From: an uncultured Paracoccaceae bacterium
Lineage (GTDB): Bacteria > Pseudomonadota > Alphaproteobacteria > Rhodobacterales > Rhodobacteraceae
Assembly: GCA_947487205.1 (NCBI GenBank)
Contig: CANKVU010000002.1
Span: forward strand, 124,001 to 188,000
Length of the DNA: 64,000 nucleotides
Reading direction: 5' to 3'
The notes beneath the pieces are model-generated. The model ran no database searches. It was not told the origin of the DNA and worked only from the letters and a program-made list of their open reading frames with translations. A program made the translations under genes and the position numbers. This document shows positions 1 to 11,844 of the stretch, one piece after another (within the stretch, counting starts at the first letter, position 1; each line of letters opens with the position of its first letter).

Positions 1-1628
1 CCGCCCGAGATCCCCGCCGGGAACGCGTCCGCCGCCCGTCCCGCATCCGTCCCGACCGCGTCGGGCCGCGCGGGGGCGTCCGCCGGCGCGCCGTCCCGAC
101 CCTGTCCCGGCAGGCCGGCCATGTCCCGCCCCGCCGCCGCCGCGCCCGGCGTCGCGGCCCCGCCCGGGCCCGCCGCGGCCGCCGCCGCCGGCCCGGCGAA
201 GCCGGTCTCGACGGTATCGGCGTCGAGAAGGACGTTGGTCTGCTCGATCACGGCGAGGTCGATCATGTCGCCGCCCACCACGATCAGGTCGTAGGCGAAG
301 CCCAGCTCCCAGAAGCTCGCGGCGTTGACGAGTTCGTTGCCGCCCATCTCGATGCGGGTCTCGCGGCCCGACAGGGTGATCTCGGCCCGGTCGTGGTCGG
401 TGGCGAAATTGTACTGCTCGACCCAGTTGATCTGGGTCACGTCGCCCTCGATCCGCACCACCGACCAGGCCGCGGGGGCGTCGCCCCCGCCCCCGCCGCC
501 CGGCGCCGCGCCGGGCCCGGGGGTCTGCGCGATCTCGGCGGCGTTGACCGCGGCGGACGGGCCGGACGGGGCGCCGGCCGGGCCGGGGACGGCGTCGCGG
601 TCCACCACCACGTTGCGCTGGGTGATCGCGTCGAGCGCGACGATCCGCCCCCCCACCGCGATCACCGGGGCGTCGAGCCAGTTCGATACGATCGCGGCCT
701 GGTTCACCGCGACATTCGCCCCGGTCCAGATCCCGGGGCCGGAGGAATGCGACGATCCCCCGCCGTCCCCGTCGCCGTCCCCGTCCCCGTCGCCGCCGGG
801 CAGGCCCGCGAAGGGATCAGGCGGGGCGGCGTCCGATGGCCCCTGCCCGTCCTCCGCGTCCGGGTCCGCCCCCGCTGGCACGGGCAGCGGCAGGTCGCGC
901 CCGGCCAGGTGATCGGGGCGGAACGCGGCCCAGTCGGGCATCTCGTCCGCGCGCTGGCCGTCGACGCGGATCCCCGCCGCCTCGGGCCCGCGCAGCGTCT
1001 CGATCCGGAGCGGGCCGCTCTCGACGCTGCCGGCGGGCGGCAGGTCCGCGATCGCCGCGACGGCCGCGTCGCCCCAGCCCGCCTCCTCTGTCGGGGGGGC
1101 GAGCGCGACCGGGCCGATCCGCGCCGCCGCGTCGGCCAGCGCCATCAGCGCCTCCGTGGCGGGGGCCACAGGGGCGAAGCCGGCCGCGTCGATATCGCCC
1201 CGATTGTCGTTATCCGTCAGGACGTTGCGCTGCACCGTTACCGCGACGAGGGAAGAGGGCGGCAGGATCAGCACCTCCGCCCGCGACGTCGCCTCCGCGG
1301 CGACGGGCCCCGCGGGGGCGGCGCGATCGGGCGCCATGGCGAAGGAGAGCGGCTCCACCCGGCCCTGGACCGGGCCGGTGTCGACGCGCTGGACGGAATG
1401 GTGAAGGGGATGATGCGCGCCTTCGTAATCGAGCCGGGGCGCCACGCCGGCCAGATCGTGCGGCGCCTCGGCGGCCGCGCGCCCCAGGTCGAGCGGCGGC
1501 CGGGCGGCCGCGTCGGGCTCAGGATCGACGAAGGGGTCGTAGCCGTCGCGCGCGCGCCCCTCCTCGATGGCGAGGGCGAAGAGGCCGGCGAAATGCGCGA
1601 TGGCGTCTGTGGTCGGATCGAGCGGCAT
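1..1628 (-). CDS. Protein with duplicated VGG/QxNVxxD module, 3' end outside window
   Basis: About 542 residues are visible and the frame stays open to the window edge. The ATG at 1626-1628 follows an AGGA-type site. Residues 1-290 are low complexity and end in a (GD)n run. A structured core spans about 295-475. Two stretches, residues 322-345 and 448-471, align without gaps over 24 positions with 11 identities; each has VGG followed ten residues later by QxNVxxDxD. A third QRNVLTDND copy sits at 133-141. The segment 396-445 (INWVEQYNFATD, ITLSG, EMGGNEL, SFWELGF) resembles a conserved alphaproteobacterial protein I associate with type I secretion loci, but this is from memory. It lies downstream of the large acidic gene on the same strand, after two hairpins. 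There is no signal peptide or membrane segment. Function is unknown. Confidence 0.75.
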   Translation of the reverse strand, partial: MPLDPTTDAIAHFAGLFALAIEEGRARDGYDPFVDPEPDAAARPPLDLGRAAAEAPHDLAGVAPRLDYEGAHHPLHHSVQRVDTGPVQGRVEPLSFAMAPDRAAPAGPVAAEATSRAEVLILPPSSLVAVTVQRNVLTDNDNRGDIDAAGFAPVAPATEALMALADAAARIGPVALAPPTEEAGWGDAAVAAIADLPPAGSVESGPLRIETLRGPEAAGIRVDGQRADEMPDWAAFRPDHLAGRDLPLPVPAGADPDAEDGQGPSDAAPPDPFAGLPGGDGDGDGDGDGGGSSHSSGPGIWTGANVAVNQAAIVSNWLDAPVIAVGGRIVALDAITQRNVVVDRDAVPGPAGAPSGPSAAVNAAEIAQTPGPGAAPGGGGGGDAPAAWSVVRIEGDVTQINWVEQYNFATDHDRAEITLSGRETRIEMGGNELVNAASFWELGFAYDLIVVGGDMIDLAVIEQTNVLLDADTVETGFAGPAAAAAAGPGGAATPGAAAAGRDMAGLPGQGRDGAPADAPARPDAVGTDAGRAADAFPAGISG

Positions 1629-1676
1629 GGTCCTGTCCCATCGGTCGCGTCAGTCCGGTCGGCGCCGGAGGAGATC

Positions 1677-1741
1677 GGCCCGCGCGCGAAGGCGCGGGCC
1701 GCCTGCAGAAGGCCCCGGGGCCGGCGCACCGGCCCCGGGGC
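1677..1741 (-). terminator. Tandem GC hairpins between the two left-edge genes
   Basis: Two perfect inverted repeats occupy the 127-bp gap after the stop of the large acidic gene. The first met by the minus-strand transcript has a 13-bp all-GC stem (1712-1724 with 1729-1741) and a 4-nt loop. The second has a 9-bp stem (1677-1685 with 1692-1700) and a 6-nt loop. Neither has a T-run after it on the minus strand, so a classic intrinsic terminator is not assured. Partial termination or mRNA stabilisation that raises expression of the upstream gene over the downstream one is an equally good reading. Confidence 0.55.
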
Positions 1742-1755
1742 GCGGGACACGGCGA

Positions 1756-4700
1756 TCAGGCGTCGCCGTCCTCGCCCGTGTAGGCGGAGCTGAACGCGCC
1801 GCCGACCACCGTCATGTCGACGGTGTTGCCGAGCACGTTGGCGCCCATGACGATGTCCTGGTTGAACGCGCCCACATCGAGCTGCGCCGCCGAGGAGGCG
1901 AAGGATTCGCCGGTCACGTAGCCGTCGTCCCCGTTGCCAGAGCCCCACGAGCCGGCATTGCCGCCCATGCCGCCGTCGCCGGTCGAGGCGCTGCCGCCGG
2001 CACCGCCGGCGCCCATGCCGCCTTCGGCGGCGCCGCCGGTGGACATGCCGCCCATGCCGTCCCCGGTGCTGCCGCCGGTGGCGGTGCCGCCGCCGCCCGC
2101 GCCAGACCCGCCCGAGGCGGCCGAGACGGCGCCGCTGGTCGCGGTGTCGGACGAGGCCATGGCCTCGTTGCCGACCGCGCCGCCGGCGCCGGTGCCCAGA
2201 TCGGTGGTGTTGCCGGTCGCCGATTCGGCCAGCGCCTCGGCCGCGATCTCGGACAGACCGCCGAAGCCCGCGTCGCTGTCGGCATAGCCGTCGGCCGAGC
2301 CGTCGGCCGTGGCATCGGTGTCGGAGGCGCTGGCGCCGCCGTCGCCGCTATCGGCGGCGGCATCGGCCGCCCCCGTCGCGCTGCCGCTGGAGGTGGCGCT
2401 GCCCGCGGCATCGGCATTGCCGCCGGTGGCCGCCGATTCGCCGCTGCCGCTGCCGGTGGCATCGGCATCGTTCGCCGCCTCGCCGGCCGCGCCGCTCCCG
2501 CTTTCGGAATCGGTGCCGCCGGTGGCGCTCGCCGTGGCGTCGTCGTCGGTCGTGGCCGCGCCCGAGGCGCCCGCCCCGGTCGTGCCCTCGGCGGTGCCGT
2601 CGCCCGACACGTCGGTGTCGAGCATGCCGGTGGTCGTGGTGGCGGTGCCGCCCGCGCCCGAGGCGCTGTCGGACCGGCCGCTGCCATCGGCCGCGCCGTC
2701 ATTGCCGGCCGTGCCGGCCGCGCCCGCGCCGCTTTCGGAATCGGAGCCCGCGGCGGTATCGGCCGTGGCGTTGTCATCCGTCGCGGCCTGGCCGCCCGTC
2801 ACCGACCCGGTGGCGCCGCTGTTGGCGGCCTCGCCGGTCACGTCGGCATCGGCCGGACCGGAGGTGGTGGTGGACCCGCCCCCCGCGCCGCCGCTGCCCG
2901 TGCCCGTGCCGGTGCCGGTGCCCGTCGATCCCGCCGCGCCCGACGTGGCGCTGCCCGCGCCGCCCGCGCCGCCGGCGGCATCGCCCGCATCCCCGGTCTC
3001 GGTCCCGGAGGCGGTGGCGCCGTGATCGCCGTCGCCGTGGCCGTGGCCCGTCGCGGCCGAGATGTCGGTATCGCTGTCGGTGTCGGTGTCGCTCGACCCG
3101 CTGCCTCCCGACCCGCCGGCGCCGTCGGCCCCGGTTTCGGCGTCGGCCATGCCGTCGCCCATGCCCGAGGCGTCGGCCGCGCCGCCATCGCCGCCATCGC
3201 CCGCGCCGTCGCTGGCCGCGTCGCCCATGGCGTCGGCCGCGGCCTCCTGCGCGCTGTCGCCGCTGTCGCCCGCCTGGGTCTCGGCGGAGCTGGCGGTGCC
3301 GGCCGCGCCGTCGGCGCTCACGTCGCCGTCGATGGCGCCGCCATCGCCGCCCGCCGCGTCGCCGTCGGTGCTGCTGGAGGCGGTGCCGGCCACGTCGGTG
3401 TCGACATCGCCCGAGGCGCCGCCGTCGGAGGCCGCGTCGGCCGCCGCATCGCCCTGCGCGTCGCCGTCGGCCGATTGCGATTGCGCGCCCCCGGCGCCGC
3501 CCGTGGCCATGGCGTCGCTGGCGCTCTCGGCGTCGGACCCCGTCTCCACGTCGCCGTCGATGGCGCCGCCATCGCCGCCCGCCGCGTCGGCCGCCGAATC
3601 GGAGCTGCCGCGCCCGGTCCCCTCGGCGGCGCTGTCGGAATCGCCGCCGCGGCCGCTTTCGGTGTCGCTGTCGCTGTCCGCCGATCCGTCGGCGTCCTGG
3701 CGGGCCTCGGCCTGGGTGTCGCCGGCATCGCCGCCCGCATCGTCGGAGGCCGCGTCGGCCGTGCTCTCGCCGTCCACGGCGCTGTCGGACCGCGCCGTGC
3801 CGCCGTCGCCGGCCCGCCCGTCGGTGTCGGTATCGGCCTGGGTGTCGGCGTTGCCGCCCGAGGTCTCGAGCCCGGAGCTGTCGCCGCCATCGCCGCTCTC
3901 GCCGTCCGAGGTGGCGTCCACGTCGCCGCCCGACGCGTCATGGCCCGTGCCGTCGGCGTCGCCCGTGTCGCCGCCGTCGCCGGCCGCGGCGTCGACATCG
4001 CCGGTCCCGCCGCTCTGGCCGCCCGCGGCCTTGGAGAAGCCGCCGACCGCGACGCCGCCCAGGCCCGCGCCGCCGGCCGTGGCGGCATCGCCGCCGCCCG
4101 CGGCGCCGTTGCTCGCGACCTCGATCCCGTCCTCGGCCGTGGCGGTGCCGCCGGTGGCGCTGCCGCTCTGGTCGAAGCTGCCGTGATTGGCCACGCTCGC
4201 CTCTTCGAGGTGGTCGGCATCGTCGAGATCGTTGCTCAGCGTGTTGACGAAGCCGGCATCGTTGCCGTCCCCGCCCAGGGCGCCGGTCAGCACGTCGCCC
4301 ATGTCGATGTCGTTGCCCGGATCGTAGGCCAGGTCGCCGCCGGCGAACATGATGTCGCCGGTCGATCCGCCATCGAGGTCGAAATCGCCGAAATCGTCGT
4401 CGCTGGGCTCGTAGCCCGACAGGTCGGCGGACATGTCGAGATCGGCCGAGACGCTGACATCGACGCCGACATCGCTCGATGTCGAGGTGTCGGTCGCATT
4501 GGCGTTCTCGTTGACGTTCGAATTGTCGCTCTCGGTATCGGCCGAGGCATCGCTGCCGGCCTCGGAGGCGCTGTCACTGTCGCTGTCACTGGCGCTTTCG
4601 GCCGAGGCGGCGCTGGAACTGTCCGTCTCGGATTCGTTGCGATTGGCGTTCTCGCTGGAATTGTCCGAGTAATTGACGTTGTCGTTCACGCTGCCGTTGT

Positions 4701-4887
4701 CGTTGCCGTTGGAATTGGCATTGTCGTTGCCATTTCCGCTATCGTTGGAATTGTCGTTGTCGCTCTCGGAGGCGTTGACGTTCTCGTTGAGGTTCTCGTT
4801 CTTGCTCTTGTCGAGATCCACGTCGTAGCCGTCATGGCCGTGGCCGATCCCGTCGCCCCAGCCGATGATGTTGTTTCTCTGTGCCAT
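1756..4887 (-). CDS. Large acidic Ser/Asp/Gly/Ala/Asn-rich repeat protein
   Basis: The product is about 1043 residues. The ATG at 4885-4887 has AGGAG eight bases upstream, which is preferred over a start seven codons earlier. A short conserved-looking head (NNIIGWGDGIGHGHDGYDVD) is followed by an Asn/Asp/Ser-rich tract to about residue 130, a more ordered acidic patch (about 140-250; YEPSDDDFGDFDLDGG), then roughly 700 residues of degenerate Gly/Ala/Ser/Asp/Thr repeats. No cysteines were noticed and there are very few Lys or Arg. The C-terminus turns structured again: NQDIVMGANVLGNTVD, then MTVVGG. That tail resembles the NQ...VGG segment of the downstream protein. No Sec signal is seen, so export, if any, would be by a leaderless route such as type I secretion. 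A secreted or surface biofilm polymer is inferred, not shown. Confidence 0.75.
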   Translation of the reverse strand: MAQRNNIIGWGDGIGHGHDGYDVDLDKSKNENLNENVNASESDNDNSNDSGNGNDNANSNGNDNGSVNDNVNYSDNSSENANRNESETDSSSAASAESASDSDSDSASEAGSDASADTESDNSNVNENANATDTSTSSDVGVDVSVSADLDMSADLSGYEPSDDDFGDFDLDGGSTGDIMFAGGDLAYDPGNDIDMGDVLTGALGGDGNDAGFVNTLSNDLDDADHLEEASVANHGSFDQSGSATGGTATAEDGIEVASNGAAGGGDAATAGGAGLGGVAVGGFSKAAGGQSGGTGDVDAAAGDGGDTGDADGTGHDASGGDVDATSDGESGDGGDSSGLETSGGNADTQADTDTDGRAGDGGTARSDSAVDGESTADAASDDAGGDAGDTQAEARQDADGSADSDSDTESGRGGDSDSAAEGTGRGSSDSAADAAGGDGGAIDGDVETGSDAESASDAMATGGAGGAQSQSADGDAQGDAAADAASDGGASGDVDTDVAGTASSSTDGDAAGGDGGAIDGDVSADGAAGTASSAETQAGDSGDSAQEAAADAMGDAASDGAGDGGDGGAADASGMGDGMADAETGADGAGGSGGSGSSDTDTDSDTDISAATGHGHGDGDHGATASGTETGDAGDAAGGAGGAGSATSGAAGSTGTGTGTGTGSGGAGGGSTTTSGPADADVTGEAANSGATGSVTGGQAATDDNATADTAAGSDSESGAGAAGTAGNDGAADGSGRSDSASGAGGTATTTTGMLDTDVSGDGTAEGTTGAGASGAATTDDDATASATGGTDSESGSGAAGEAANDADATGSGSGESAATGGNADAAGSATSSGSATGAADAAADSGDGGASASDTDATADGSADGYADSDAGFGGLSEIAAEALAESATGNTTDLGTGAGGAVGNEAMASSDTATSGAVSAASGGSGAGGGGTATGGSTGDGMGGMSTGGAAEGGMGAGGAGGSASTGDGGMGGNAGSWGSGNGDDGYVTGESFASSAAQLDVGAFNQDIVMGANVLGNTVDMTVVGGAFSSAYTGEDGDA
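3319..3589. repeat. Pair of near-perfect 42-bp direct repeats inside the acidic gene
   Basis: The stretches 3319-3360 and 3547-3588 appear identical by eye and encode DAAGGDGGAIDGDV-type blocks 228 bp (76 codons) apart. Looser copies of other blocks, such as SDSESGxGAAG around 2480-2520 and 2720-2760, also recur. Identity at the DNA level suggests recent duplication or gene conversion, so repeat number may vary between strains. Assembly errors are also possible in such sequence. Confidence 0.7.
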
Positions 4888-5482
4888 ATCCTGGACTCCT
4901 GGCGGCACTGGACACGGGTCGCCACTCTGTCAAAAGCGACCGACGGGCCCGATCCGCCCTGATGTGAATTTATGGATTGCGGCTTTCTGTTGCGCCCGGG
5001 AAAGCCCACCGGACCCGATGTGCAGCTACATCGTACCCCCCTTCGTGAAATACCGGCCCGTTCCCCGAGGGCCGGTCCGGCGGAATACGCGCCCGGCCGG
5101 ATCGTTCTGAAATGTATTTGCGGCCCTATTGGCGCGAGCCGTGAGAGGAAATATGCCGAAACGCCCATTGGCTGGCATCCCGGTAATCCGATTATCCTCG
5201 AATCGCGCGGGGCCGGGGGAATGGCTGGCAATCGACCGATCAATCTCACCCGTTCGGTGAAGGGGTCCGCGCCCGGGCGGGCGGCGGCCCGCAGACGCGG
5301 CTCGGCCACGCGCCTGATTCCAATCGAACTTCGCGTTAACGGGGAAATGAGATTTGATTCATTCGCGCCAAGCGTGTCCGCCGGCGGATTGATCTTTCGG
5401 ATAGTTTACGACTGGTTATCGAGAGGTAAACTTGGGACTACTTCCGTTGTTTACAACCGATTTTCCAGAACCGACTTTTTCA
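4888..5482. promoter_or_regulatory. Long divergent intergenic region upstream of acidic gene and LuxR regulator
   Basis: Nearly 600 bp without a convincing gene separates the acidic-protein gene (minus) from the LuxR-type gene (plus). The outer parts are noticeably less GC-rich than the coding DNA around them. Near 4955-4985 a minus-strand CATAAATTC-like sequence could serve as a -10 element for the acidic gene. Several open frames cross the region but have poor codon bias and no ribosome binding site. It probably holds both promoters and their operators; see the GTTTAC sites near 5404-5457. Confidence 0.6.
5404..5457. promoter_or_regulatory. Repeated GTTTAC half-sites, putative operator
   Basis: GTTTAC occurs at 5404-5409, its inverse GTAAAC at 5426-5431, and GTTTAC again at 5449-5454 inside the near-palindrome GTTGTTTACAAC (5446-5457). 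The half-sites start 22 and 23 bp apart, about two helical turns, in an AT-rich island just upstream of the LuxR-type gene. The spacing fits a dimeric HTH regulator on one face of the DNA. The cognate protein is not known; the adjacent regulator is the obvious candidate. Confidence 0.45.
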
Positions 5483-6220
5483 ATGAAGGACACCGAGCGG
5501 ATGATTTCTGGCGAACCCGCCCTGATCGGACCACGGACATTCTCGAAATGCAGCGTCACCTTCGCGGGGAGCGCGCGGCAATTCTCCGACCGGATGCTGT
5601 CGGCGCTGGCCGCCGAGTTCCCCGATGTCGATTTCGACCGCGTCGAGCGCATCGGGTCGGTCGAGCAGCATTGCCGCCGCGACGCCGGCCGGCGGCCGGT
5701 GCTGCTGGTCATCGACGAGGAGGATATCGACGACCTGCTCGAACGGTCGGACCATTACGTGGCGCTGGCCGAACCGGGCCGGCTGGTGGTGGGCTACCGC
5801 GACGCGCGCGCCGCCTCGGGGCTGCTGTCGGCGATCGAGATGCAGCCCAGCCTGCTGCGGATCGGGTTCCTGCCGCTCAACGTGCAGATCGACGCCTGGA
5901 TCTCGATCACGCGGCTGCTGATGTGCGGCGAGATCGTCTATCCGCAGGACCTGCTGCCCGAACGGTTCCGCTCGGCGCCCACCGACGCCGCCGCGATCGA
6001 CGGCGACCTGCTGACCCCCCGCGAATGGGAGATCCTGGAACTGGTCGCCACGGGGATGCAGAACAAGCTGATCGCCCGGGACCTGTCGGTGTCGGAGCAC
6101 ACGGTGAAGCTGCACGTCCACAACATCCTGCGCAAGCTCGGCGTCCCGAACCGCACCGGCGCGGCGCAATGGTACGCGAAATGCGTGGCCGCCAGCGGGC
6201 GCGGGGCGCGCCGGGAATGA
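5483..6220 (+). CDS. LuxR/GerE-type transcriptional regulator
   Basis: The C-terminal 65 residues are a GerE helix-turn-helix (LTPREWEILELVATGMQNK, then SVSEHTVKLHVHNILRKLG). The N-terminal half resembles a degenerate receiver-like or CsgD-type domain with no obvious phospho-acceptor pattern (VLLVIDEEDIDDLLERSDHY). The start is uncertain. ATG 5483 is used here; ATG 5501 has an AAGGA ten bases upstream, and a TTG at 5432 follows AGAGG but would encode an AT-rich, unlikely-looking head. It diverges from the acidic-protein gene and is translationally coupled to the next gene, so control of the left-edge locus is a reasonable inference. By analogy CsgD, also LuxR-type, controls curli. Confidence 0.8.
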   Translation: MKDTERMISGEPALIGPRTFSKCSVTFAGSARQFSDRMLSALAAEFPDVDFDRVERIGSVEQHCRRDAGRRPVLLVIDEEDIDDLLERSDHYVALAEPGRLVVGYRDARAASGLLSAIEMQPSLLRIGFLPLNVQIDAWISITRLLMCGEIVYPQDLLPERFRSAPTDAAAIDGDLLTPREWEILELVATGMQNKLIARDLSVSEHTVKLHVHNILRKLGVPNRTGAAQWYAKCVAASGRGARRE

Positions 6221-6708
6221 CGGCGCAGGCGCCGTTCGACGGCCTGCTGCTGCGGATCGGGCGCCTGAACTACGCCTGGACGAACACCGAGAGCCTGCTG
6301 ATCCACGTCATCGCGGGCCTGGCGGGGACCGGCAAGAACCCGGCCGTCATCATCTTCCTGACGCTGAACACGACCCGCGCCCGGATCGACCTGGTGGAGC
6401 GGCTGGCAAAGATGGAGGCGACGCCCGCGGCGCAGCGCCGGCGCGTCCTGGACCTGACGGGCCGGATCGTGAAGCATTCGGCGCTGCGGAACCATTACAA
6501 TCACAGCCTCTACGCGTTCGACCCCGCCGACGGGGCCGCGCGCACGATCACGATGCGGATCGCCGACCGCAAGGACGACATCAGGGTCGGTCGCCCGCGG
6601 GCGATCGATGCCGGGGCGCTGGCCGACATCGACGCGGCGATCGCCTCGCTGTCGGCCCTGAACCGCGACTTCTGGCAGGCGATCCACGAGTTCCGCTTTC
6701 CGGTCTGA
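6217..6708 (+). CDS. Small hypothetical protein coupled to the LuxR gene
   Basis: The protein has 163 residues and starts at an ATGA overlap with the stop of the LuxR-type regulator, so the two are very likely co-translated. It is soluble and mostly helical in character, with a central NTTRARIDLVERL helix and a conserved-looking HSALRNHYNHSLYAFD segment rich in His, Asn and Tyr. I do not recognise the family. An accessory or sensor partner of the regulator is possible but is inferred only from the overlap. Confidence 0.7.
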   Translation: MTAQAPFDGLLLRIGRLNYAWTNTESLLIHVIAGLAGTGKNPAVIIFLTLNTTRARIDLVERLAKMEATPAAQRRRVLDLTGRIVKHSALRNHYNHSLYAFDPADGAARTITMRIADRKDDIRVGRPRAIDAGALADIDAAIASLSALNRDFWQAIHEFRFPV

Positions 6709-6712
6709 GCGG

Positions 6713-7396
6713 CTAGGGCGCCACCGCCCGGAGGAACATCGCCAGGCCCGTCTCGAACCGGGCGCGGGTCTCGGCGGGGGCGGGCGGCGCGCCCGGGTTC
6801 AGCAGGATGTCGGCGAGCGAGGGGCGCAGCATGCCCTCCAGGATCGCGGCGGCCTGGGCGGTGTCGGCGATCTCGGCCTCGCCCCGCGCCACGGCCCGGT
6901 CGAGCTCGTCGCGGATCAGGGCGCGGTCGTGCAGGATGCAGCGCGACAGGCAGGCCTGCGCCGCCTCGGGGCGCGATTCGGCCCCCGCCACGGCGAAGCG
7001 CAACACCGCCGCGGGCAGCCCCGAGGGCCGGGCGCGGGGGCACGGGGCGAGCAGCAGGCGCAACCGCTCCTCCAGCGGGCGGGCGCGGCCGGCGGCGTCG
7101 AGCTCGCGGACGAACTGGCTGCGGATCCGGCCCATATAGGCGGCGAAGAGCTCGTCGCGATCGGCGAAGAGGCCGTAGAGCGTGCGCTTGGACATGCCCG
7201 CCTCGGCGGCGATGGCGTCCATCGTCATCCCGTCGAGCCCGGCGCGCGCGAAGACCGCGTCCAGCGCCTCGAAGATCCGCTCCATCCGGTCGGCGGCCGA
7301 CATCACCGGCGGCCGCCCGCGGGCGCGCCCCCGGCATCCCCCGCCCCCGCAGCCGCCCGGCTTTCGCGATGCATCGTTCCGCTCTTGCAAGATCAC
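6713..7396 (-). CDS. TetR-family repressor of the adjacent RND pump
   Basis: The N-terminal HTH region is clear: RGRPPV, then MTMDAIAAEAGMSKRTLYGL at about residues 58-77, followed by FADRDELFAAYM. The remainder is a typical ligand-binding all-helical domain, for about 227 residues in total. The RGRPP block is commonly present at the start of this family, which favours the upstream GTG (7394-7396) or a TTG two codons later with a better-spaced GGAG; an ATG at 7303 would cut into the domain. It is transcribed divergently from the efflux operon 90 bp away, the usual arrangement for AcrR-like local repressors. Its inducing ligand cannot be read from sequence. Confidence 0.85.
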   Translation of the reverse strand: MILQERNDASRKPGGCGGGGCRGRARGRPPVMSAADRMERIFEALDAVFARAGLDGMTMDAIAAEAGMSKRTLYGLFADRDELFAAYMGRIRSQFVRELDAAGRARPLEERLRLLLAPCPRARPSGLPAAVLRFAVAGAESRPEAAQACLSRCILHDRALIRDELDRAVARGEAEIADTAQAAAILEGMLRPSLADILLNPGAPPAPAETRARFETGLAMFLRAVAP

Positions 7397-7485
7397 TCCG
7401 CCCGATTTAGGGAACCGGTGAGTTTTTTATCCTGACGCCCGCCGGACATCAAGCGCCCGCAGGCCCCGCCGAAAGAAAGATCGCC
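7397..7485. promoter_or_regulatory. Divergent promoter region of TetR and RND genes
   Basis: This 89-bp gap contains the only AT-rich stretch nearby, GTGAGTTTTTTATCCTGA (about 7420-7437), preceded by AACCGGT, which contains the 6-bp palindrome ACCGGT. It must hold both divergent promoters and, by family analogy, the TetR operator. No longer symmetric site stands out. Confidence 0.4.
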
Positions 7486-8706
7486 ATGGTCAGCCTTCCG
7501 AGACCCGCGGCCCTCGCCGCCCTCCTCTGTCTCGCGGCCGCGGGCGCCGTCGCCCAGGACGCGCCCCCGCCGCCCGCCGTCAGCGTCGAGACGCTGGAGC
7601 CGCAGAGCGTCACCCTGACCTCGACCCTGCCGGGCCGGGTGCGCGCCTCGTCCGAGGCGGAGGTGCGCCCGCAGGTGAACGGCATCGTCGTCGAACGCCT
7701 GTTCGAGGAGGGCGGCCTGGTGCAGGAGGGCGACATCCTCTATCGGATCGACCCGTCGAGCTACGAGGCGGCGACGGCGCAGGCCCGCGCCGCGGTCGCG
7801 CAGGCCGAGGCGACGCTGCGCGCCGCCGAGCGCGAGGCCGAGCGCATCCAGACCCTGAGCGAGCGCGGCGTCTCGTCCACCGCGACGCAGGACCAGGCGG
7901 TGTCGACCCGCGACGCCGCCGCCGCGGCGCTGGAGGTGGCGCGCGCCCAGCTCAGGACCGCCGAGATCGAGCTGGACCGGACCGAGCTGCGCGCCCGCCT
8001 GTCGGGGCGGATCGGCTTCTCCGAGGTCAGCCAGGGCGCGCTCGTCACGGCGAGCCAGGCGACGCCGCTGGCCACGATCCGCACGCTCGACCCCGTCCAC
8101 GTGGACGTGACCCAATCCGCCGCCGACCTGCTGAAATGGCGCCGCAGCGCCGGCCCCGGCGCCGCGGGCGAGGCCGGGCGCGACGTGACGCTCGAACTGG
8201 CCGACGGCTCGATCTACGAGGAGACGGGGCAGCTCGGCGCCGCCGAGCCGCATGTGGACGAGCAGACCGGCGTCGTGGTCCTGCGCATGACCTTCGGCAA
8301 TCCCGACGGGCTGCTGCTGCCCGGCATGTACGTGCAGGTGGAGATGCCCACCGGCACCGCCGAGAACGTGTTCCTCGTCCCGCAGGAGGGGGTGACGCGC
8401 GACCGGCGCGGCAACCCCACGGCGCTGGTCGTCAACGCCGAGAACGTGGTCGAGGAGCGCGCACTCACGATCGTGCAGGACCGCGGATCGGACTGGATCG
8501 TCAGCGACGGGCTGGCCCCGGGCGACCGGGTGATCGTGTCCGGCCTGCAGAGCGCCGCGCCCGGCGCCACCGTCGCCGCCGAGGAGCGCACCGAGGCCGC
8601 GCCCGAGGGCCAGGCCGCCGCCGGTCAGGCGCCGGACGGCCAGGAGCTGGCCGAGGCGGACCCGGAGGACGGGCCCGCCGCCGGCCCCGCGGACGGAGCG
8701 CAATAG
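7486..8706 (+). CDS. RND efflux periplasmic adaptor (AcrA/MexA family)
   Basis: The 406-residue protein has a Sec signal (AALAALLCLAAAGAVAQ). A lipoyl half (VRPQVNGIVVERLFEEGGLV) is followed by a long alpha-helical hairpin rich in Ala/Glu/Arg (about residues 90-165), the second lipoyl half with barrel, and a membrane-proximal domain (DGLAPGDRVIVSGLQ). It ends in an unusual Ala/Glu/Asp/Pro tail of about 40 residues. The family links the inner-membrane pump to an outer-membrane TolC-type channel. The permease begins three bases after its stop. No outer-membrane factor is encoded here, so one must be borrowed from elsewhere in the genome. Confidence 0.93.
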   Translation: MVSLPRPAALAALLCLAAAGAVAQDAPPPPAVSVETLEPQSVTLTSTLPGRVRASSEAEVRPQVNGIVVERLFEEGGLVQEGDILYRIDPSSYEAATAQARAAVAQAEATLRAAEREAERIQTLSERGVSSTATQDQAVSTRDAAAAALEVARAQLRTAEIELDRTELRARLSGRIGFSEVSQGALVTASQATPLATIRTLDPVHVDVTQSAADLLKWRRSAGPGAAGEAGRDVTLELADGSIYEETGQLGAAEPHVDEQTGVVVLRMTFGNPDGLLLPGMYVQVEMPTGTAENVFLVPQEGVTRDRRGNPTALVVNAENVVEERALTIVQDRGSDWIVSDGLAPGDRVIVSGLQSAAPGATVAAEERTEAAPEGQAAAGQAPDGQELAEADPEDGPAAGPADGAQ

Positions 8707-8709
8707 ACC

Positions 8710-11700
8710 ATGGCACGCTTCTTCATCGACCGGCCCGTCTTCGCCTGGGTGATCTCGATCCTGATCATGGGGATCGGGGTCCTGGCGATCCGCACCCTGC
8801 CCGTCGCGCAATACCCCGAGATCGCCCCGCCGACGGTCGAGGTCAGCGCCGCCTATCCCGGCGCCTCGGCGCAGACGGTGGCCAACACCGTCACCCAGGT
8901 GATCGAGGAGCAGATGACCGGCCTCGACGGGCTGCGCTATTTCTCGTCGACCTCGTCCTCGGCCGGCACGGCCTCGATCACGCTCACCTTCGAGACCGGG
9001 ACCGATCCCGACATCGCCCAGGTGCAGGTGCAGAACAAGGTCAGCCAGGCGACAGCGCTGCTGCCCGAGCCGGTGCAGCGGCAGGGCGTGACGGTGCAGA
9101 AATCCTCCTCCGGCTTCCTGCAGGTGATCGCGCTGCTGTCGACCGACGGCAGCTACGACCAGGCGGACCTGTCGGATTACCTGTCCTCCAACCTGCGCGA
9201 CGACATCAGCCGCATCGACGGCGTCGGCAACGTCCAGGTCTTCGGCGCGCCCTACGCGATGCGGATCTGGCTCGACCCGTCCAAGCTGTCGGCCTACGGG
9301 CTGACCGCCGCCGACGTGGTCGCCGCCGTGTCGGAGGAGAACGCCCAGATCTCCGCCGGGGCGTTCGGCACCCGCCCGGCCGAGGCGGGCCAGATGCTCA
9401 ACGCCACGATCACCGCGCAATCGCTGCTGCAGACGCCCGAGGATTTCCGCCAGATCGTGCTGCGCGCCGAGACCGGCGGCGGGCTGGTGCTGCTCGGCGA
9501 CGTGGCCGAGGTGGAGATCGGCGCCGAGAACTACGATTTCGTCACCCGCTTCAACCGCGCGCCCGCCGCCGGCATGGCGATCAGCCTGGCCCCCGGCGCC
9601 AACGCGCTCGACACCGCCACGGCGGTCGAGGAGCGCATGGGGGCGTTCGAACAGACCTTCCCCGAGGGGATCGACTACGTCATCCCCTACGACACCACGC
9701 CCTTCGTGGAGATCTCCATCGAGGAGGTGATCAAGACCCTGCTGGAGGCGATCGTCCTCGTCTTCCTGGTGATGCTGCTGTTCCTGCAGAACCTGCGCGC
9801 CACGCTGATCCCGACCCTCGCCGTGCCGGTCGTCCTGCTGGGCACGTTCGGCATCCTGGCGGTGGCCGGATACTCGATCAACACGCTGACCATGCTGGCC
9901 ATGGTGCTGGCCATCGGCCTGCTCGTCGACGACGCGATCGTGGTGGTCGAGAACGTCGAGCGGGTGATGGAGGAGGAGGGCCTGTCGCCCAAGGAGGCGA
10001 CCTACAAGTCGATGGGCCAGATCACCGGCGCGCTGATCGGCATCGCCATGGTGCTGTCGGCGGTGTTCGTGCCGATGGCCTTCTTCGGCGGCTCGACGGG
10101 CGTCATCTACCAGCAATTCGCGATCACCATCGTGTCGGCCATGGCGCTGTCGGTGCTGGTGGCGCTGACGCTGACGCCGGCGCTCTGCGCCACGATCCTG
10201 AAGCCCGAGGCGCATGGCGCGCGGCGCGGCCCCTTCGCGTGGTTCAACCGCGGCTTCGACCGGACGCTCGGGGGCTATGCCGGGGCGGTGGGCTGGATCC
10301 TGCGCCGGCCGCTGCGGATGGGCCTCGTCTATCTGGCGCTGGCGGTGGCGATGGGGCTCCTGTTCGTGCGGACCCCCACCGGCTTCCTGCCCGAGGAGGA
10401 CCAAGGCATCCTCTTCACCCTGATCCAGGCGCCGACCGGCGCCACGCTCGAACGCACCGTCGACGTGATCGAGCAGGTCGAGACGCATTACCTCGAAAAC
10501 GAGAGCGAGGCCGTCGAATCCGTTTTCGGGGTGGGCGGCTTCAGCTTCGCGGGGGCGGGGCAGAACATGGGCATCGCCTTCGTGCGGCTAAAGGATTGGG
10601 ACGAGCGGACCGACCCGGAACTGTCGGCGCAGGCGGTGGCGAACCGCGCCTTCGGCGCCTTCTCGCAGATCCGCGACGCCATGGTGTTCCCGATCGTGCC
10701 GCCCTCGGTCATCGAGCTCGGCAACGTGTCGGGCTTCGACGTGTACCTCCAGGCGCAGGGGGGGCAGACCCACGACGAGCTCCTGCAGGCGCGCAACCAG
10801 CTTCTGGGGCTGGCGGCGGGCAGCGACCTGATCGCCTCGGCGCGGCCCAACGGGCTCGAGGACGCGTCGCAGTTCAACATCGACATCGACTGGCGCAAGG
10901 CCGGCGCGATGGGGGTGTCGGCCACGAACGTGTCCGACCTGCTGGCCACCGCCTGGGCGGGCACCTACGTCAACGACTTCATCGACCGGGGCCAGATCAA
11001 GCGCGTCTATGTCCAGGGGCAGGCCGAATCCCGCTCCACCCCCTCCGACATCGAGAAATGGCGGGTCCGCAACGATTCGGGCGGGCTGGTGCCGTTCTCC
11101 AACTTCGCCACCGGCGGCTGGAGCGAGGGCGCGCAGGGCGTCTATCGCTACAACGGCCTGCCGGCGATGCAGATCCAGGGGTCGCCGGCGCCCGGCGTGA
11201 CGACCGGCGAGGCCATGGCCGAGATGGAGCGGCTGGCCGGGCAATTGCCCGACGGCTTCTCGCTCGCCTGGACCGGCCTGTCGCTGGAGGAACGCGAATC
11301 GGGCAGCCAGGCGCCGCTGCTCTATGCGCTGTCGCTGGCGGCGGTGTTCCTGTCGCTCGCGGCGCTCTACGAAAGCTGGACGATCCCCTTCGCGGTGATG
11401 CTGGCGATGCCGATCGGCGTTCTGGGCGCGCTGGTGGGCGCCTGGCTGGGCGGGTTCGAGAACGGGGTGTTCTTCCAGGTGGGGCTGCTGACGGTGATCG
11501 GGCTGACCGGCAAGAACGCGATCCTGATCGTCGAATTCGCCCGCGAGCGGCTGGAGGGGGGCGAATCGCTCTTCGCCGCGACGCAGGAGGCGGCGCGCCA
11601 GCGCTTCCGCCCGATCGTCATGACCTCGATGGCGTTCTCCCTGGGCGTGCTGCCGCTGGTGCTGAGTTCGGGCGCGGGCGCGGGCGGGCGCAACGCCATC

Positions 11701-11844
11701 GGCTCGGGCGTGCTGGGCGGCACGCTGTCGGCCACGATCCTGGGCGTGCTCTTCGTGCCGCTCTTCTTCGTGGCGGTGATGCGGCTCGTCGGCCGGTTCC
11801 GCAAGCAGCCCGCCCCCGCCGCCACGGCCACGCCGGCGGAGTGA
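8710..11844 (+). CDS. RND multidrug efflux permease (HAE-1/AcrB family)
   Basis: The 1044-residue length matches AcrB-type trimeric drug/proton antiporters. The start [14 protein letters not shown] is family-typical. The paired proton-relay aspartates fall at D407-D408 ([13 protein letters not shown]), the same numbers as in AcrB, and the second TM block carries [14 protein letters not shown]. Two large periplasmic loops follow TM1 and TM7. It forms an operon with the upstream adaptor. Substrates are likely amphiphilic drugs, detergents or solvents, as known for the family; the specific ones cannot be predicted. Confidence 0.95.

Follow-up and report, generated by a model that had tools for sequence, protein, structure and literature searches.

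A strongly conserved type I secretion cassette, as yet without a name, lies at the left end of a 64,000-nucleotide stretch of DNA from an uncultured Paracoccaceae bacterium (the window: bases 124001-188000 of contig C2, CANKVU010000002.1, in a draft genome of 4.18 Mb, assembly GCA_947487205.1). It consists of six genes. Two encode probable exported proteins, a long repeat protein and its modular partner; two encode an ATP-binding cassette (ABC) exporter and a HlyD-type adaptor (membrane fusion protein, MFP); and two, facing the other way, encode a LuxR-type regulator and a small basic protein (Table 1). Our reading is that this is probably a dedicated cassette that, together with a shared TolC, exports a two-protein surface or matrix polymer. 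An earlier note on this DNA had described the repeat protein, its partner and the divergent genes, and had suggested that type I secretion genes probably lie beyond the left edge of the window.

Extension of the contig leftwards (L003) located these genes. The partner gene extends to 591 bases beyond the left edge of the window and is followed, in the same orientation and with overlapping ends, by genes for a PrtD-type ABC exporter (TIGR01842, 700.5 bits against a cut-off of 510) and then a HlyD-type adaptor (TIGR01843, 398.9 bits against 208.65). No outer-membrane gene is adjacent to the cassette; the genome holds one open reading frame of the TolC family (OEP), on contig C8 outside the locus, so that a TolC is available. 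Two further PrtD-type exporters exceed the cut-off elsewhere in this genome. From this arrangement, together with protein composition and the lack of a long hydrophobic leader in the repeat protein, we strongly infer that both proteins are exported through the ABC exporter of the cassette, probably without Sec.

The repeat protein is the candidate main subunit. Its gene begins with ATG preceded by AGGAG, and its product is, as the earlier note had it, a very acidic protein of about 1040 residues (1043 residues, isoelectric point (pI) 4.05, 197 Asp/Glu against 11 Lys/Arg), free of cysteine. The label "acidic" fits this genome but does not extend to the family, many members of which contain only 9-13% Asp plus Glu. 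From the N terminus, the protein is composed of an Asn-alternating tract, a conserved middle domain, a stretch rich in Gly, Ala, Asp, Ser and Thr, and a conserved C-terminal domain. The Asn tract holds 22 Asn or Gln in its densest 60 residues and alternates far more regularly than shuffled versions (z 6.6). An alignment of 30 substrates places the motif GYxPxDDDFxDxDL ... GNDxGxVNxxSNxLxDxD ... GI in the middle domain. The C-terminal domain carries WGSxNGDDGYVTGES ... FNQxIVMGANVLGNTVDMTVVGG, with a mean column identity of 68% over 13 aligned loci; conservation of the substrate within the family is highest over roughly its last 65 residues, which diverge in distant loci and likely hold the export signal.

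Substrates were recognized by this C-terminal pattern in 85 of 93 loci, in lengths from fragments up to 1634 residues; complete ones span about 264 to 1634. Alternation of Gln or Asn (Q/N), richness in glycine and scarcity of Lys and Arg (below 3% in 82 of 85) are commoner among them than acidity. In their N-terminal part, Gln or Asn alternates with small or acidic residues, as in QGQGQ or NLNGNGN, and the excess of lag-2 over lag-1 spacing reaches z>3 in 79 of 93 related substrates. Such alternation brings all the amides onto the same side of a beta strand, as in a polar zipper. Neither exported candidate of this genome has a match in Pfam or NCBIfam. Stray family matches among 30 substrates of relatives (TolA at 1.1e-4 in one, TrAA12 in three) were taken as low complexity. 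Membership of the RTX family was rejected, given no Pfam match and no full copy of the nonapeptide GGxGxDxUx in the repeat protein; a single GGxGxD occurs in each of the repeat protein and the partner. As side observations, a distant alphaproteobacterium carries two tandem Q-alternating substrate genes (L148:7012-9006), and the longest substrates (1491-1634 residues, in L108, L116 and L120) stand with unusually long reading frames for the partner (1021-1250 residues) and the ABC exporter (1033-1068 residues), the start codons being unverified.

The partner has 739 residues, a pI of 4.08 and no cysteine; complete partners measure about 610 residues or more, and Lys plus Arg make up 1-5% in 13 loci. 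The earlier note had seen a duplicated module here. Repetition is indeed present, and the number was too low: profile comparison finds at least five homologous modules, M1-M5, which match one another in 9 of 10 pairs. QxNxxxDxD motifs stand at five places, and pairs of DxD are invariant. The modules are predicted to be beta-rich: an AlphaFold2 model of a relative's partner begins with a helix (residues 5-42) followed by beta modules, and the mean predicted local distance difference test (pLDDT) score is at least 90 in 21 of the 32 ten-residue blocks of residues 281-600. The helix is conserved, as is the C-terminal end, D-V-M-Q-x-x-L-A, which is reminiscent of the Asp-plus-hydrophobic end of PrtD-type substrates. 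Thirteen partners gave no Pfam family at an E value of 0.1, and a structure search with the model returned no clear fold match. The earlier note had also stated that Sec signals are absent. By a count of hydrophobic runs in the first 45 residues, this is likely for the repeat protein, because its longest run is 5, and less firm for the partner, because a run of 9 sits inside its conserved helix.

The two proteins were expected to co-occur across genomes, and the partner follows the repeat protein in every fetched locus. A scan of species-representative genomes with the alignment of the 80-residue substrate C terminus found 233 encoding stretches; the 80 fetched are the best matches, and the synteny counts therefore do not cover the other 153. 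All six genes occur together and in order in 71 of these 80 loci. Taken singly, the partner is found in 80, the ABC exporter in 78, the MFP in 77, the LuxR-type gene upstream in 74 and the small gene upstream in 73. Both loci without an ABC gene end with their contig first, and no gene is missing from any of the 80 where the contig left room (9 kb downstream, 8 kb upstream). Two loci are rearranged, L115 with the luxR and small genes downstream and L122 with the small gene downstream. Sequences of this genome and 12 relatives went into the profiles used; one of these relatives (L038) and L084 among the 80 represent a single contig, and other fetched loci may also overlap with the set. Most loci belong to Rhodobacteraceae, with rhizobia and others besides. 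Across the 72 loci in which all five profiled genes are present, component distances correlate at r 0.50-0.87 (permutation maximum 0.20), uncorrected for species phylogeny, a pattern to be expected of a cassette that is transferred or inherited whole.

Distribution among related genomes is patchy. The partner is encoded in 13 of 194, this genome included, and the small protein in 15; all 13 partner genomes also have the small protein, and the two extra small-like matches are weak (1.7e-16 and 1.2e-4). Partner and substrate stand together in all 12 of the other loci (in L044 the substrate was read by eye), ABC and MFP in 11, with one contig ending first, the small gene in 11, and a LuxR-type gene upstream in 10, where again one contig ends; the divergent locus of genome G003 (L044) has only a weak helix-turn-helix match, downstream. 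When the full partner served as the only query sequence, a genome scan recovered no relative. Partners were present, own genome included, in 2 of 385 genomes of an even class sample and in 8 of 299 of a phylum sample, and in 32 of 72,556 plasmid records (Sulfitobacter, Paracoccus, Ensifer and others), where the features displayed read hypothetical, none or "type I secretion protein ATPase".

All seven loci outside the family keep partner, ABC and MFP genes, the partner of L146 having been seen in the phylum-sample search. Matches to the substrate profile are strong in two and range from 17.7 to 48 bits in five. Six have the small gene, which is not in the examined stretch of L143, and four have luxR matches (L142, L144, L145 and, weakly, L146). 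Among their eight substrates, Q/N alternation is strong in L142, L145, L146 and both of L148 and absent in L144 and L147; that of L143 is a fragment. Beside three distant loci (L144:16855, L145:15161, L148:3334) we observed a protein of 518-567 residues with a similar start by eye, VIDSLERLxxVRxxWExVYDxD, IDIIDTIAGFEAVRDNWD. It presumably resembles a GNAT/CelD-type transferase and could possibly modify the exported protein.

The hairpins that the earlier note placed between the repeat-protein and partner genes are two GC-rich stems (1712-1741 and 1677-1700), and a counterpart recurs in nearly all loci compared. Just after the substrate stop codon, a hairpin of -20 kcal/mol or stronger is found in 72 of 73 loci, compared with 159 of 1460 random stretches (80 nt, 20 per locus, from the same loci), and in 57 of the 73 loci it is stronger than every one of the 20 controls from the same locus. 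Stem sequences vary among loci while the pairing persists. Folding of the gap is stronger than that of mononucleotide shuffles in 52 of 71 cases (z<-2). Because at least five T in eight bases follow the hairpin in only 17 of 73 loci (at least four T in 29), partial termination is possible in a minority of loci, with protection or processing of the mRNA elsewhere.

Upstream of the repeat-protein gene, the regulatory gap of about 600 bp described earlier measures 595 bp and is 60% GC, compared with 72.6% for the window. A consensus scan of 1600-5500 showed no sigma-70-like site, a result that says little in a GC-rich group. Within the gap, on the minus strand at 5156-5183, a hairpin of 10 pairs is followed by CATATTTCCT; this could be a leader attenuator or chance.

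Beyond the gap, the LuxR-type gene and the small gene are coupled as first described, by a four-base overlap, ATGA. The regulator has a GerE domain (5e-21) and a divergent N-terminal half in an alignment of 11 orthologues. Against the CsgD model it scores 53.6 bits, well below the cut-off of 250, with the likeness limited to the helix-turn-helix. The small protein (pI 10.3) is modelled by AlphaFold2 as a helical domain (pLDDT 89, predicted template modelling score 0.82), and its median identity among loci is 53%. The motif RNxxxHxx[YF] is present in 67 of 74 small proteins, L063 being left out of the count; five sequences that miss it, together with L112 and L117, read RHRYNH or RNRxNH, with Trp replacing Tyr or Phe. 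R91 and H96 are invariant in 67 aligned sequences. The protein contains an R-x4-H motif, and the RNxxxH-type pattern is that of the active site of HEPN RNases, although family and fold searches lend no firm support to such an identity. Structure searches, which left out the "viral" fold library, gave generic helical bundles only, with no protein named HEPN among the 50 Foldseek matches listed, and Pfam, NCBIfam and PADLOC had no useful match (weak ones, HTH_30 and LisH among them, were put down to chance). In four divergent loci, a gene of about 140-190 residues lies beside the small gene (L146:7508-7990, L147:2294-2854, L148:2659-3150, L044:12919-13332), with a stretch like RRARKAAVALI..VERSRW by eye.

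These observations suggest a model for the cassette. The LuxR-type regulator, divergent across the long intergenic region, would control the export operon. Its first gene would supply the major subunit, lysine-poor, Q/N-alternating and Gly-rich with a conserved C terminus, and its second a modular beta partner acting as anchor, nucleator or cross-linker. The ABC exporter, the HlyD adaptor and the shared TolC would carry both out of the cell, bypassing Sec. By protecting the mRNA of the first gene or by thinning read-through, the hairpin would in either case leave the first subunit in surplus. Outside the cell, the Q/N ladders and the acidic, possibly calcium-binding DxD motifs would drive folding of the subunits and their assembly into a polymer, which may serve biofilm formation. 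Judged by its sequences, the cassette looks like an undescribed way to build an extracellular protein coat or fibre.

Curli (CsgA/CsgB, with CsgD) and Fap (FapC/FapB) combine two subunits, Q/N-rich imperfect beta modules and a divergent LuxR-type helix-turn-helix regulator, and the present locus resembles them in its proposed two-subunit logic, its predicted beta modules and its divergent regulator. A more specific version of the polymer model, which we put forward tentatively and hold to be rather improbable, is an undescribed alphaproteobacterial fibre system, functional-amyloid-like and built through type I secretion in place of Sec and a dedicated pore: the repeat protein would be the Q/N fibre subunit, the partner its nucleator or anchor, the regulator a CsgD-like switch, and the small protein an RNase of HEPN type, or an RNA-binding protein, adjusting the ratio of the subunits, perhaps at the hairpin. 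Membership of the curli family itself was rejected, with no curlin repeat (Pfam) in 13 partners and only TrAA12 in 3 of 30 substrates.

The closest functional model is BapA of Paracoccus denitrificans, yet BapA is encoded elsewhere in the same species. Like the present locus, bapABCD combines a large, acidic protein of low complexity with neighbouring genes for a type I ABC exporter and MFP of its own. BapA contains 891 Asp-Ala repeats, has a pI of 2.4 and an adjacent outer-membrane gene, and is needed for a biofilm that calcium stimulates (PMC5588039; the comparison also draws on PMC13235738). Neither Asp-Ala repeats nor an adjacent outer-membrane gene occurs in the present locus, and the available text describes no partner or small gene for bap (PMC5588039). 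It reports a single predicted type I system in P. denitrificans (PMC5588039). In the genome of strain DSM 413 (G194), contig C26 (L134) carries an Asp-Ala frame and, after it, ABC and OEP genes (by profile) on either side of an adaptor-like frame (by eye), while contig C56 (L095) carries the present locus as a second system; two PrtD-type exporters exceed the cut-off there, one of them in the present locus. Identity with BapA was accordingly rejected, since the Asp-Ala protein of that genome, with its ABC and OEP genes, is encoded at a different place.

The product might nonetheless act as BapA or Vibrio CabA would, as a calcium-binding matrix protein, a polyanion that gels the matrix in the presence of calcium and forms no fibre. 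We regard this as possible but doubtful. CabABC of Vibrio vulnificus also unites an acidic matrix protein with ABC and MFP genes in one operon, and CabA is a type I substrate of 190 residues with a pI of 3.95 and RTX-type repeats (PMC4584020); this precedent, that of BapA with its calcium-stimulated biofilm, and the invariant DxD pairs of our partner speak for such a gel. The lack of the RTX nonapeptide, the mild acidity of many relatives and the prevalence of Q/N alternation point away from it. CabABC differs further in having one substrate, and the available text describes no LuxR-type or small gene of the present kind (PMC4584020). It is unlikely, in our view, that only the repeat protein is exported and that the partner stays in the cytoplasm or periplasm, where it would keep the repeat protein soluble as a chaperone or export helper. 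The conserved N-terminal helix with its hydrophobic run and the position of the partner gene between substrate and exporter would suit a chaperone, but an acidic protein poor in Lys and Arg, free of cysteine here, composed of repeated beta modules and with an end reminiscent of PrtD-type substrates, would be an odd one.

Contact-dependent killing, with a surface-held aggregate toxin like CdzC/CdzD of Caulobacter crescentus and the small protein as immunity factor, appears very improbable. Cdz is an alphaproteobacterial type I system in which two Gly-rich proteins are exported by ABC and MFP components, with TolC encoded outside the cluster, and form insoluble aggregates on the cell surface (PMC5380434); the patchy occurrence of our cassette would also fit a killing system. 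However, CdzC and CdzD, which kill neighbours, are hydrophobic glycine-zipper proteins of 86 and 84 residues, and CdzI has three predicted membrane spans (PMC5380434), whereas the exported candidates here are acidic, hydrophilic and hundreds of residues long (complete substrates from about 264, complete partners from about 610), with no glycine-zipper protein of about 85 residues, and the small protein is basic with a predicted compact helical domain. The small protein is also well conserved, unlike immunity genes, which typically change fast.

The combination of partner, regulator and small protein appears in none of the available descriptions of Bap, Cab and Cdz. The literature searched, mostly open access, yielded no description of the present locus, and the available part of a proteogenomic paper on a Tritonibacter relative (Epibacterium mobile) held nothing relevant on secretion or adhesins. 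The cassette likewise has no family model among those searched. With its substrate C-terminal domain encoded at 233 places and the gene order confirmed at 71 of 80 examined, the model species P. denitrificans among them, it would be an additional type I surface system in an organism described as having one (PMC5588039). Rhodobacteraceae and rhizobia would gain a candidate fibre or matrix made of protein and, should fibres form, the cassette would exemplify amyloid-like assembly by way of type I secretion.

Table 1. Features of the secretion cassette in window coordinates.
Feature	Position	Strand	Basis
Repeat protein (main subunit candidate), 1043 residues	1756..4887	-	Open reading frame, composition, conserved C terminus
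Asn-alternating (NxNxN) tract of repeat protein	4636..4803	-	Alternation statistics
Conserved middle domain of repeat protein	4117..4470	-	Alignment of 30 substrates
Strongly conserved C-terminal domain of repeat protein	1759..1950	-	Alignments
Two GC-rich hairpins between repeat-protein and partner genes	1677..1741	-	RNA fold of the gap
Partner, N-terminal part (first 542 complete codons of 739 residues)	1..1628	-	Remainder left of the window, to L003:11409
Divergent regulatory gap, 595 bp, 60% GC	4888..5482	.	Sequence composition
LuxR-type (GerE) regulator, divergent from the export operon	5483..6220	+	GerE match, alignment of 11 orthologues
Conserved small basic helical protein, 163 residues, RNxxxH motif	6217..6708	+	Alignments, AlphaFold2

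To the right of the cassette (6713-11844), a TetR-type repressor gene with an AefR-like C-terminal domain lies directly beside the small gene and is divergent from what by eye are genes for an RND efflux adaptor (7486-8706) and pump (8710-11844); this neighbourhood reads as an ordinary efflux locus.

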